Shown here: piece by piece, positions 17,078 to 28,536 of the stretch
How the letters are laid out: each line of letters begins with the position of its first letter
How positions within the stretch are numbered: position 1 is the stretch's first letter
DNA from: Bryobacterales bacterium
GTDB taxonomy: Bacteria > Acidobacteriota > Terriglobia > Bryobacterales > UBA6623
Assembly: GCA_028819235.1 (NCBI GenBank)
Contig: JAPPMC010000109.1
Location: 1-53,085, forward strand
Direction: 5' to 3'
DNA: 53,085 bases
Notes under the pieces: model-generated
Database searches by the model: none
Told to the model about the DNA's origin: nothing
What the model saw: the letters and a program-made list of their open reading frames with translations, nothing else
Position numbers and translations under genes: made by a program

Positions 17078-17131
17078 TTGACCAGACAGGCGGGTTGTGT
17101 AATCATGCAATTAGATGAATAGTCATGCAAC
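17078..17131 (+). promoter_or_regulatory. candidate argF promoter and tandem ARG boxes
   Basis: TTGACC (17078-17083) could be a -35; the matching -10 is weak. Two 18-bp ARG-box-like sites are seen at 17094-17111 and 17114-17131, sharing TCATGCAA exactly 20 bp apart. The second reads TGAAT-AGTC-ATGCA against the consensus TGAAT-N4-ATTCA (9 of 10); the first reads TGTGT-AATC-ATGCA (7 of 10). Paired boxes with this spacing are the usual ArgR operator. The second box covers the argF ATG. argR is the fourth gene of the operon. Confidence 0.55.
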
Positions 17132-18086
17132 CAAGCCGGAGTTGGCCCTCCGACCGCGGCACTTTCTCCGCGACAGCGACCTCGCCGCGGACGAGCTCAA
17201 GTCCGTGCTGGAGCTGGCTCGCCGAGTCAAGGCCAAGCCACGCGACTACCGCCATGCGCTCGACGGTCGAGGGGTAGCACTCCTCTTTGAGAAGCCCTCG
17301 CTGCGCACGCGGATGACCTTTGAGGTAGCAGCGAGGCAGATGGGGGGCTTCGGCGTCTTTCAGGACCATCGCGACGGTCGCATCGGCGAGCGCGAGCCAG
17401 CGCCCGACATAGCGCGCAATCTTGACCGCTGGTTCGACGCGATTGTCGCGCGCACGTTTGCCCACCGGACCCAAGAGCTGCTCGCCGAGTGGTCGAGCGT
17501 GCCAGTGATCAACGCGCTGAGCGAGGCCTACCACCCGTGTCAGGCTCTGGCTGACTACATGACGATTCTGGAGCGGTTCGGATCGTTCGAGGGCGTCAAG
17601 CTGGCCTACGTCGGAGATGCCAACAACGTCGCCCACTCTCTGCTGCACTGCGCTCCGCAGCTGGGGGTGTCGATCTCGATATGCGGGCCCGCGCGCTACG
17701 GGCCTCGGCAGGCTGACCTGGCGGTCGCGCGCGAGGCGGCAGCCGCGAACGGCTGCGAGGTGGAGGTCACGCCGGACGTAGTCGCGGGTGTGGCCGGCGC
17801 CGCCGCGGTCTACACCGACGTGTGGACCAGCATGGGCTGGGAGCAGGAGACACAGCAGCGCCGCCTGGCATTTGCCGAGTACCAAGTGGACGAGCGCATC
17901 ATGGCAGCCGCCAGAAGGGACGCGGTGTTCATGCACTGCCTGCCCGCGCTCCGGGGCGAGGAGGTCAGCGCCGCGGTGATCGAGTCGCCGCAGTCGGTGG
18001 TGTTCGATCAGGCAGAGAACCGGCTACACGCCCACAAGGCGATCCTGATGCACACGATGGGAGGAAACAATGGCGCCGAGGGTTAA
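17115..18086 (+). CDS. argF: ornithine carbamoyltransferase
   Basis: A 323-residue enzyme that makes citrulline from ornithine and carbamoyl phosphate. The carbamoyl-phosphate site EKPSLRTR is at 59-66, followed by FAHRTQELL, the HPCQALAD motif, VWTSMGWE, FMHCLPALRG with the catalytic cysteine, and DQAENRLH. N-acetylornithine carbamoyltransferase is the main alternative, but the motif set and length favour the standard enzyme. No ribosome binding site precedes the ATG and a possible promoter ends a few bases before it, so the message may be nearly leaderless. Its end overlaps argG by 17 bp. Confidence 0.93.
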   Translation: MNSHATKPELALRPRHFLRDSDLAADELKSVLELARRVKAKPRDYRHALDGRGVALLFEKPSLRTRMTFEVAARQMGGFGVFQDHRDGRIGEREPAPDIARNLDRWFDAIVARTFAHRTQELLAEWSSVPVINALSEAYHPCQALADYMTILERFGSFEGVKLAYVGDANNVAHSLLHCAPQLGVSISICGPARYGPRQADLAVAREAAAANGCEVEVTPDVVAGVAGAAAVYTDVWTSMGWEQETQQRRLAFAEYQVDERIMAAARRDAVFMHCLPALRGEEVSAAVIESPQSVVFDQAENRLHAHKAILMHTMGGNNGAEG

Positions 18087-26787: not shown

Positions 26788-26811
26788 GCTTGTGTGGCCA
26801 ATAGGGCGCCG

Positions 26812-28536
26812 TCAGGCCTCCGCGTACTCGAGGTCGCGGTAACCGAGGCGCGTAAGGACTCTGTCCGCCGCACGCACCCCTCGGAACTGCGCTTCTTCGA
26901 ATATTGAGATGCCGCTCAGATCGGAGTTCGCGAACTGCACGGTGCCCGAGCCGTCTGCCAGTCTCCGCAGCGCTCCCGAGGTCAGCAAGCCTGGTACGGG
27001 CCGGATCATTGCATGCGCAAGGCGCATGATGTCCACTCTGGAGACGCACTCTCGGATGTCGGGGTGAGCGGTCTCAAGATCCCGCAGCACCTCCTCCTTG
27101 CGTTCCTCCCAGCTGGTGGTCAGCAGCGAGGTTCGGGCCTGGCTGGGATGCGGGCGCGTCAGGGCTCGGTAGTACGTCCAGACGGACGGCGAGTGCGATG
27201 CGGAACCCGATTGGTGGGTTGCGATCACGTACCCTAGGCCCGGCGAATCGTACAGGATGTTCTCCCAGGCGGGCGGTGCGTCCGGCTCGCGCGGCTCCCG
27301 GTCGACCGTAAGGTTGGCCGTGTACCACGGCGAGTACTGCAATCGGCTCCGCCCCGGCAGCTCCGCGGCGAGGAACGGCATCAGATAGCCAGCCAAGAAT
27401 GTCGGCGCGGCAAAGATGACGGCCTCGCACTGCAGCACGGAGCGTGGAGTGACGACCTCAAGATGCCCACCTGCCTTGCGGACATGCCGAACAGGCATTC
27501 CGGTGCGCAGCCGAGGCCCCACGCGTTCGACCAGGCGCTCAACGATCCAGCCATTCCCTTCCGGCCAAGTGAGGTAGCCGACGTCATTCGCCGGTCGCGC
27601 GGCGAAGTAGTGGATGCCGGCCCAAGCCGAGGCTTCGTCGTACGAGCAGCCGTAGTCGTCCCGGCAGGCATAGTCCGCGTACCAGCGAAGCCGCTCGTGG
27701 AAGAATCCTTCCTGAACCATCCAAGCCTTCATTGAGAGGGTGTCTAGGCCGGTTGTCGCGCCTGGTTCGCGAATCGGAATCGTGAACTCTCCCCCTTTGC
27801 GGAAGTAGTCCATGCGATCCCAGAATCGGTCGAACTGGTCGCGCTCGGATTGTGGCGCGGATTCGCCAGGCTCGATGCCGGGTCTCCACGAACCGTCGCG
27901 GAACAGCCGGCTGAGGGGCTCTCGCGCCAAGTGAGCCCCGTTCCAGCGGCCGTTCTTGAGCACGCCGAGTTCCGAGAACAGCTCTTCGACCAAAGGGATT
28001 CTATGGTCCGGGACCGGTACGTAGTGCGCGCCCCACGGGTAGGCGGAAGCCGAGTTCTGGCCGGATCTGGAGTTCCCTCCGGGGCGTTTCTCCATCTCGA
28101 GGGCCACGAAGTCTCCAAATCCAAGCCGCAGCATGCGCCAGGCGGCGGACAGGCCGGCGATTCCGGCACCCACTATGACGACCGGGATCCGCTCGCGGGC
28201 CGACGGCGTGCGGTGGGGGGGGGGGGCCGCGGGGGGGGGGGGGCCCCCCCACCCGGGGGGGGGGGCCGCAACCCCCCCCCCCCCCCCGCCCCCCGCCCCC
28301 CAACCCCCCCCGGGGGCATTCGCCCCACCACCTCGCCGGCGGGGTCCCGGGGGGGGGGGGGCGGGGGGGGGTGGGGCCCCCTCTGGGGGGTCCGCCCCCC
28401 CCACTTCGAGGCTGGTGTCGACGAACCTGCCCTCGACGGGCCGCGGACGCCGGAACAGGAACGCCGCGGTTGCCGCGCCTCCTGCCCCGACGGCGGTGGT
28501 GGACAGGAGCCGCCTGCGCGTGATGGTCGCCGCCAC
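26812..28536 (-). CDS. Tat-exported FAD-dependent amine oxidase-like oxidoreductase (sequence damaged)
   Basis: 574 residues as read. The N-terminus has a twin-arginine signal (TRRRLLSTTAVGAGGAATAAF); the dinucleotide-binding motif VVIVGAGIAGLSAAW follows at about 117-131, with EMEKRPGGNSRSG after it and the FAD-contacting end SDLSGISIFEEAQFRGVRAAD. The fold is that of flavin-containing amine oxidases; a polyamine or amine substrate is suggested by the DUF350 and spermidine synthase neighbours, not by sequence alone. The start is GTG 28536. Residues 45-108 are encoded by G/C homopolymers (28213-28402) and are almost certainly not real protein; the true linker is probably shorter. The frame survives across it, perhaps by chance. 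Confidence 0.75.
   Translation of the reverse strand: MAATITRRRLLSTTAVGAGGAATAAFLFRRPRPVEGRFVDTSLEVGGADPPEGAPPPPAPPPPGPRRRGGGANAPGGGWGAGGGGGGGVAAPPPGWGGPPPPAAPPPHRTPSARERIPVVIVGAGIAGLSAAWRMLRLGFGDFVALEMEKRPGGNSRSGQNSASAYPWGAHYVPVPDHRIPLVEELFSELGVLKNGRWNGAHLAREPLSRLFRDGSWRPGIEPGESAPQSERDQFDRFWDRMDYFRKGGEFTIPIREPGATTGLDTLSMKAWMVQEGFFHERLRWYADYACRDDYGCSYDEASAWAGIHYFAARPANDVGYLTWPEGNGWIVERLVERVGPRLRTGMPVRHVRKAGGHLEVVTPRSVLQCEAVIFAAPTFLAGYLMPFLAAELPGRSRLQYSPWYTANLTVDREPREPDAPPAWENILYDSPGLGYVIATHQSGSASHSPSVWTYYRALTRPHPSQARTSLLTTSWEERKEEVLRDLETAHPDIRECVSRVDIMRLAHAMIRPVPGLLTSGALRRLADGSGTVQFANSDLSGISIFEEAQFRGVRAADRVLTRLGYRDLEYAEA
28213..28402. repeat. G/C homopolymer tract, probable sequence artefact
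   Basis: About 190 bases made almost wholly of runs of G and C, several longer than ten bases, with scarcely any A or T. Nothing else in the window resembles it and normal coding sequence stands on both sides. It falls inside the amine oxidase gene, where it would encode a Pro/Gly/Arg-rich filler. A base-calling or assembly error is the best explanation; a real low-complexity insertion is the alternative. Confidence 0.85.

Follow-up and report, generated by a model that had tools for sequence, protein, structure and literature searches.

An operon of the second group in PMC11237479 encodes PspA and CesT/Tir together with a 7TM-spermidine synthase, YjfL (DUF350), the Ctha_1186 lipoprotein and DUF4178. 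The same paper treats a DUF4247/DUF2617 variant (CCP45394, CCP45395), and its available sections predict DUF2617 to be a beta-sandwich enzyme bearing two conserved His residues, with no activity named. The cassette considered here lies in the window, i.e., the whole 53,085-nucleotide stretch of DNA from an uncultured Acidobacteriota bacterium that was analysed, and is a variant of that PspA/CesT-DUF350-DUF4178-lipoprotein-spermidine-synthase system. It has DUF350, DUF4178, a lipoprotein homologous to that of PspA-type clusters and the membrane spermidine synthase in common with the operon as presented in those sections, from which it differs in that TelA and a small membrane protein replace PspA and CesT/Tir, and in the presence of DUF2617; TelA and XpaC are mentioned 0 times in the paper. 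A sequence-only reading of the window had taken the function of the membrane part to be undescribed; the part is not wholly so, as its PspA/CesT version is described there. The features of the locus are as follows.

17115-18086, + strand: argF, part of the resident arg operon
18070-19305, + strand: argG, part of the resident arg operon
19302-20702, + strand: argH, part of the resident arg operon
20699-21142, + strand: argR, end of the resident arg operon
17115-21142, + strand: argF-argG-argH-argR operon, resident and outside the cassette
21143-38138, no strand: 17-kb block that separates argR from the SDR gene, absent here in 8/8 readable genus relatives
21192-21197, + strand: TATACT, predicted -10 box of the cassette promoter, common to five loci
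21230-21811, + strand: small 193-aa protein, predicted membrane/helical, occupying the XpaC position without a PF10112 match
21833-22996, + strand: TelA, PF05816 profile match
23027-23641, + strand: DUF4178 protein, profile match 3e-13
23634-24239, + strand: DUF2617 protein, predicted AdoMet decarboxylase (S51-H52, C69, H167)
24232-25869, + strand: predicted lipoprotein, 545 aa, C-terminal part homologous to the same-slot protein of PspA-type clusters
25885-26787, + strand: double DUF350 membrane protein, DUF350 matched twice
26812-28536, - strand: flavin amine oxidase, twin-arginine start, FAD site
28920-30134, + strand: M20 deacylase, ArgE/DapE-like, scoring too low for the cut-offs of the models shown; located between the oxidase and synthase genes
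30403-35759, - strand: genes for an ankyrin protein, HXXSHH and PSD/cytochrome, which in the window genome separate the oxidase from the synthase
36483-38138, + strand: membrane spermidine synthase (polyamine aminopropyltransferase), NF002956, active-site motifs kept
38234-38992, + strand: SDR gene, right flank of the block, the follower of argR in relatives

The order argFGHR and then six + strand genes was confirmed with coordinates, as were the gaps of at most 30 bp or overlaps among the six, the convergence of the oxidase (with its twin-arginine start) on the DUF350 gene at 24 bp, and a spermidine synthase some 10 kb on, whose start was measured 9.7 kb past DUF350. The names given to TelA, DUF4178, DUF2617, the lipoprotein and the double DUF350 also held, the domains by Pfam. 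The 30-bp gap after argR had to be revised: because most members of the small membrane protein family have about 190-194 aa, the first cassette gene most likely starts at GTG 21230 instead of 21173, and the gap is therefore 87 bp. For the lipoprotein, GTG 24232 is the most likely start.

We consider it somewhat more probable than not that the six genes, the convergent oxidase and the synthase are one gene set that is found together in relatives away from the arg genes, that most likely moved in between argR and the SDR gene in one ancestor, that likely serves the making and oxidation of polyamines at the membrane from its own predicted promoter, and in which DUF2617 is predicted to replace SpeD as the supplier of decarboxylated AdoMet. 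In such a pathway, DUF2617 would process itself at S51 to yield a pyruvoyl group and would decarboxylate AdoMet, after which a diamine or triamine would receive the aminopropyl group from the membrane aminopropyltransferase. Outside the inner membrane, the exported oxidase might then act on the product or a surplus. The membrane part would consist of DUF350, DUF4178 and the lipoprotein, and TelA with its partner would be the sub-membrane scaffold, which in the published version is PspA/CesT.

The proposed tie of the membrane run to polyamine genes was borne out, since the oxidase adjoins DUF350 and the synthase adjoins the oxidase in 3/3 relatives in which both are readable (L044, L046, L047). 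The synthase matches NF002956, 'polyamine aminopropyltransferase' (556 bits; cut-off 472), and retains the motifs GGGDG, VDxDP and DxPDP, which we take to be the active-site motifs of aminopropyltransferase. The twin arginine of the oxidase is found in 6/8 aligned rows, the other two being shortened at the start; about 58 aa of the window protein derive from a poly-G/C tract and are missing in the seven relatives aligned. From the neighbourhood, we infer that its substrate is a polyamine. The C-terminal part of the lipoprotein aligns with proteins of PspA-type clusters at 20-23% identity (BLAST E values of 7e-14 to 6e-6 against four of them).

The DUF2617 protein has PF10936 (E value 7e-19; 69 bits, cut-off 22.3) as its sole match at E<=0.1, PF02675 (SpeD) being absent. 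SpeD is present in 8/8 spermidine synthase clusters without DUF2617, and canonical SpeD in 0/5 genomes having clusters with DUF2617, elsewhere in the genome included, although class also distinguishes these groups. G230 was excluded from this count as its contig ends before the synthase (PF02675 absent). Also dropped were G364 and G077 (short contig lacking the synthase; PF02675 positive in each), G268 (single DUF350, no cluster match), G373, G388, G333 and G446 (DUF350 without the other genes), and G207 and G258 (stretch with neither a clear dyad nor a synthase; PF02675 on another contig in G258, none in G207). Weak partial DUF2617 matches were seen in G309, just above the cut-off, and in G405, below it. 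A TelA cassette on an Alteromonas plasmid (L106) carries speD without DUF2617.

AdoMet decarboxylases, AdoMet decarboxylase/prozyme complexes included, rank best among the structural matches of the DUF2617 model, and its invariant Ser and Cys align with the SpeD catalytic residues, with weak statistics. The processing Ser-His corresponds to S51-H52, with C69 after the next two strands, and position 50 is A, S, C or T, not Glu, in the printed rows other than the odd one, P0155; the hhalign profile left out P0155 and P0156. A PDB sequence search with the DUF2617 profile gave no match. DUF2617, but not SpeD, is matched in both Haloferax volcanii and Corynebacterium glutamicum. For halophiles, the source of decarboxylated AdoMet is asked about in PMC5178350, according to which no AdoMet decarboxylase homologue was found in H. 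volcanii or any other halophile sequenced (data not shown in that paper). Other speD homologues have been introduced into a speD-deficient E. coli strain in PMC10407285. Within the texts it reached, a literature search on the names Rv2598-Rv2601 found nothing on function. We predict that DUF2617 is an AdoMet decarboxylase standing in for SpeD. That it represents a new, short, fused-half class of pyruvoyl AdoMet decarboxylase, replacing SpeD in the membrane polyamine cassettes of Acidobacteriota and constituting the missing enzyme of haloarchaea and corynebacteria, is put forward tentatively, at a little under an even chance. If DUF2617 is such an enzyme, the source of decarboxylated AdoMet would be answered for archaea and for actinobacteria bearing DUF2617.

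DUF2617 may instead be another small enzyme or binding protein, such as a prozyme-like relative or a hydrolase with two histidines, decarboxylated AdoMet being otherwise supplied or the synthase used differently; this we regard as a serious possibility, if not a probable one. The weak sequence statistics and the prozyme complexes among the best structural matches are in keeping with it, as are the absence of SpeD also from family members without the cassette and the observation in PMC5178350 of non-conserved binding residues in the SpeE homologues of halophiles. Against this, canonical SpeD is absent elsewhere in 5/5 genomes, so that a prozyme would be without a partner, and the synthase of the window has intact active-site motifs.

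TelA of the window (PF05816; E value 1e-57; 196 bits, cut-off 30) is the sole TelA match in its genome, and among the 24 genomes searched TelA over the cut-off is confined to this cassette. A TelA scan found no relative on viral contigs and only 4 near relatives on genome contigs (two strict patterns), a PDB sequence search with the TelA profile found designed proteins only, and plasmid searches with DUF2617 and TelA found none. The plasmid records covered were 14 less H2 and H7, whose species are represented by H1 and H9. The first cassette gene had been called XpaC-like and TelA its pairing partner; TelA is indeed paired with a small membrane protein, but the XpaC identity was rejected, PF10112 giving no match in this protein at E<=0.1 or E<=1, nor in the window genome at E<=10. 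The AF2 model of the protein (mean pLDDT 88.6) had no Foldseek match at E<=0.001. PspM was rejected as well (14.4 bits for the window protein; cut-off 27.7); Rv2743c was matched by 11/27 family members, the best at 6e-4. TelA and the small membrane protein occupy the slot of PspA and CesT/Tir in other clusters, which suggests that either pair can fill one slot. PspA was found in none of G200, G202, G230 and G208, and once in the window genome, on another contig. Replacement of PspA by TelA in place within the family was rejected from the SpdS tree, in which the TelA clade groups with G008/G172 (99/98) and G220 with G465 (97/97); the DUF350 tree was poorly resolved.

It is unlikely that TelA and the small membrane protein are a tellurite or antimicrobial-tolerance pair merely adjoining polyamine genes. 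The available part of PMC12791056 would favour such a pair, a Listeria TelA mutant being more sensitive to nisin and tellurite; however, the restriction of TelA to the cassette and the recurrence of an equal gene order in a gammaproteobacterium speak against it. The cassette also ties TelA, known in the literature available for tellurite and antimicrobial tolerance, to membrane polyamine chemistry.

The gene run is real; its arginine link is not conserved. The argFGHR genes occur in the same order in 18/18 family genomes, and an SDR gene lies directly after them or at most 3 kb away in 8/8 readable genus relatives. The block after argR was found only in the window genome (G000) and its sister G230, as far as the contig of the latter reads, and linkage of argR with the cassette was not seen in the other 16/18; the contigs of G218 and G224 break off at argR or shortly beyond it, and TelA is absent from both genomes. 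G200, G202 and G208, i.e., 3/4 relatives possessing the cassette, carry it on a contig other than that of the arg genes or 2.5 Mb away from them. At the right border of the block, the upstream motif TTGGTATCCTAGG of the SDR gene is preserved. In relatives other than G230, the run is linked in itself and to polyamine genes, but not to arg genes; an arginine-polyamine co-operon was rejected from these neighbourhoods, and the arginine operon was a misleading neighbour of the polyamine cassette.

TATACT stands in the argR gap and before the first cassette gene in 5/5 loci of the TelA type, at a distance of 25-67 nt from the start; no other 6-mer is common to the five when the 120 nt preceding this gene are compared. 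Resampled 5000 times, the sequences never shared TATACT or an AT-rich 6-mer, and shared some 6-mer in 71 cases. A sigma-70 scan did not list the site because no fitting -35 was seen. We predict that TATACT is the -10 box of the cassette's own promoter. Of the terminator and promoter that might separate argR from the first gene, no + strand terminator was found and this promoter-like box was. No ARG box was found at the junction (best site 8 mismatches). The argF operator of the window genome is unclear (best site 5 mismatches, reached by 36/200 resamplings), and clear in 16/16 relatives outside the G000/G230 pair (<=4/200). Given the junction, the promoter-like box and the unclear argF operator, ArgR control of the cassette appears unlikely; read-through from argR is possible.

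The earlier proposal, in which arginine synthesis, polyamine chemistry and a membrane stress complex are one unit under ArgR, could appeal to the close spacing in G000 and G230 and to the lack of a visible terminator, yet is very improbable in view of the missing linkage in 16 family genomes, the junction and the separate promoter-like box. An ancestral linkage lost in other genomes, to which its occurrence in two species might point, is the least credible, with the cassette elsewhere in G200 and G202 and argR and SDR at most 3 kb apart in all eight readable genus relatives. The absence of the arg link in relatives, the travelling of the cassette genes with oxidase and synthase, and the shared TATACT box therefore point to transplantation of a polyamine cassette and not to an arginine-polyamine operon.

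Among known systems, the PspA-type clusters of G220 and G465 also have the oxidase in common with the window cassette. The DUF4247/DUF2617 variant, as given in the available sections of PMC11237479, shares DUF2617, DUF350 and polyamine genes, and differs in that the window lipoprotein has no DUF4247 match and that the TelA dyad is present. The Alteromonas mediterranea plasmid cluster shares the synthase, small membrane protein, TelA, DUF4178, lipoprotein and DUF350, the last five genes (small membrane protein to DUF350) being ordered as in the window; it differs, apart from speD in the absence of DUF2617, in having no amine oxidase within 9 kb. SpeD (PF02675) and DUF2617 are alike in cluster role, in strand order around Ser-His and Cys, and in the His of HxYP; they are unlike in that DUF2617 falls below family recognition, has no Glu before the Ser and holds two halves in one short chain. 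As the PspA/CesT version is already published (PMC11237479, sections available), the new point is that the spermidine synthase clusters of the genomes compared carry either DUF2617 or SpeD.

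The window carries argF-argG-argH-argR followed by six plus-strand genes and a flavin amine oxidase that converges on them; a spermidine synthase lies further along. The gene run described after argR in the sequence-only reading is real. TelA, DUF4178, DUF2617 and DUF350 all score above their Pfam cut-offs. The first of the six genes had been labelled XpaC-like, but by Pfam it is not XpaC. Its start is most likely the GTG at 21230, which would leave a gap of 87 bp to argR, because most relatives of this small protein have about 190–194 residues. The AlphaFold2 model is all-helical (pLDDT 88.6), and in our reading of the sequence the long first helix would cross the membrane. 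An ArgE/DapE-like M20 deacylase (28920–30134) also lies within the block, below the cut-offs of the 25 models listed out of 33. A poly-G/C tract (28206–28403) encodes about 58 Pro/Gly-rich residues of the amine oxidase; it is missing from all seven aligned relatives, including the sister genome G230 (about 92% identical outside the tract), and is likely an assembly or sequencing artefact.

The argFGHR order is conserved in all 18 family genomes (argH was sought in each; 16 loci were fetched, the remaining two being the window's genome, G000, and G230). Besides G230, nine genus relatives were read across the junction between argR and an SDR gene (at 38234 in the window), with distances taken between BLAST match ends. 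The SDR gene lies roughly 80–110 bp past argR in five (G200, G204, G206, G212, G222) and 2–2.9 kb past it in three (G202, G232, G210), whose loci L056, L057 and L064 hold other inserts of that size at the same place; in G224 the contig stops and no distance is readable. In the window 17.1 kb separate the two genes, and the SDR-upstream motif is conserved at the right border of the block. The G230 contig stops within the M20 gene, with the right border beyond its end. The junction is perhaps a recurrent insertion place. DUF350 and TelA matches were both absent in seven genus members searched. Arginine supply had been proposed to be joined with the polyamine and membrane genes. That proposal is not borne out, as the cassette is on a different contig from the arg genes in G200 and G208 and 2.5 Mb from them in G202, and SDR is at or near argR in eight genus relatives; the arginine link is local. 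The predicted argF ATG falls inside 17097–17131, a stretch that holds a promoter and ARG box in relatives, and the true start may be further downstream.

In three relatives, G200 (JAPPMB010000047), G202 (OX638379) and G208 (WGMB01000004), the order is small membrane protein-TelA-DUF4178-DUF2617-lipoprotein-DUF350, then the convergent oxidase, with the synthase immediately past it. This togetherness supports the polyamine part of the earlier reading, and we regard the cassette as one unit. In the window oxidase and synthase are not adjacent, and the genes that intervene are M20, ankyrin, HXXSHH and PSD. TATACT is the sole 6-mer common to the 120 nt upstream of the first-gene start in all five loci; among 5000 resamplings of the four independent loci, some common 6-mer arose in 71 and an AT-rich one, or TATACT, in 0. 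No -35 fitting TATACT was found. The repeat GGATRCGGNYAGTAGGGAATCAG occurs three times in the window, each copy upstream of, and in the same sense as, one gene:
28556–28578, minus strand, upstream of the oxidase
35894–35916, minus strand, upstream of PSD
36302–36324, plus strand, upstream of the spermidine synthase
Shuffling expects no copies, with the caveat that the pattern was derived from these copies themselves. By eye, a decayed copy precedes the G230 oxidase, and in G200 (locus L044, 6132) the core, with one mismatch, stands right beyond the synthase end. A potassium-channel gene (Ion_trans_2 plus a TrkA_N or RCK domain; L047 15231–16304, L048 8442–9533) lies immediately upstream of the TelA-type cassette in G208 and inside the run of a PspA-type cluster in G220.

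The AdoMet decarboxylase SpeD (PF02675) was searched in 33 genomes, selected from those seen earlier, and matched in 12 and not in 21. The 13 compared here are those whose fetched cluster contains the synthase. A canonical match is found in none of the five with DUF2617 (G000, G200, G202, G208 and G220, the last assigned by Pfam at 36 bits). G000 has a single weak match (L076, contig C90), in which the ESH site has lost its Glu and His and reads TST; the protein is a degenerate or repurposed SpeD-like protein. All eight genomes without DUF2617 in the cluster, as judged from fetched loci (G008, G172, G465, G387 and the hand-picked two-DUF4178 examples G027, G042, G149 and G009), match PF02675, five of them in-cluster. 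The Fisher value for this alternation, 0.0008, is confounded by kinship, because the five are one family, the eight belong to other classes, and 11 cassette-less family members also lack PF02675. DUF2617 was found in 3 of 396 phylum genomes, those without a match not being itemised. PF02675 is absent genome-wide in G229, G234, G254 and G291, which have PspA clusters and where absence of synthase and DUF2617 covers the fetched 18–20 kb only. Twelve of 14 plasmid records were fetched, and of these 12 synthase loci 10 have speD within 9 kb (all but Tritonibacter and Rhodovulum) and 0 have DUF2617; those of Rhizobium and Rhodovulum have only a partial synthase and no DUF350. Fourteen named control genomes gave PF02675 in 8 and PF10936 (DUF2617) in 2, C. 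glutamicum and H. volcanii, with no overlap. The Mycobacterium gene order is presumably DUF4178-DUF2617-DUF4247-DUF350-SpeE. On balance the run is best read as a TelA-type membrane polyamine cassette that was transplanted, with DUF2617 likely standing in for SpeD.

According to excerpts of PMC5178350, H. volcanii has two 7-TM spermidine synthases, AdoMet decarboxylase was not found in it or other halophiles, and the origin of decarboxylated AdoMet is asked after. The paper adds that binding residues have not been kept in these synthases; its abstract names agmatine and cadaverine as the chief polyamines. Among the papers searched, PMC11237479, PMC13118837 and PMC9505326 mention DUF2617. Excerpts of the first two name no decarboxylase role for it, and such a role may be reported elsewhere in the literature; excerpts of PMC10407285 and PMC11107197 hold no word beginning with DUF.

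PspA lies within the clusters of G220, G229, G234, G254 and G291 (PF04012) and of G008 and G465 (our own profile). A gene of about 140 codons adjoins it and was labelled CesT-like; Pfam gives CesT only in G220, the G254 gene has no Pfam match, and the other labels, from a profile seeded with G254 and G229 among others, are partly circular. Of 24 genomes searched for TelA, precisely the five that have the cassette score above cut-off; G226 and G234 match more weakly. G000, too, has a PspA, on a different contig from the cassette. The C-terminal part of the lipoprotein is homologous between TelA-type and PspA-type clusters. A two-DUF4178 version (L087, L089, L108) has DUF4178 twice, a single DUF350, synthase and flavin oxidase; in Novosphingobium and G042 speD is inside the cluster. 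The TelA type extends beyond Acidobacteriota, because a plasmid of Alteromonas mediterranea carries synthase-speD-small protein-TelA-DUF4178-lipoprotein-DUF350, matching the window-family profiles for small protein (2e-6), TelA (3e-26), DUF4178 (6e-6), lipoprotein (2e-33) and DUF350 (9e-30); Pfam confirms TelA, DUF350 and AdoMet_dc. PMC11237479, a paper with 0 counted mentions of TelA, reports in its excerpts a system in which PspA and CesT/Tir are joined by DUF350, DUF4178, a lipoprotein and a 7TM spermidine synthase; variants of it carry DUF4247/DUF2617, AdoMet decarboxylase and polyamine oxidase. DUF350, DUF4178, lipoprotein and spermidine synthase are common to that system and the TelA-type cassette, which is a variant of it.
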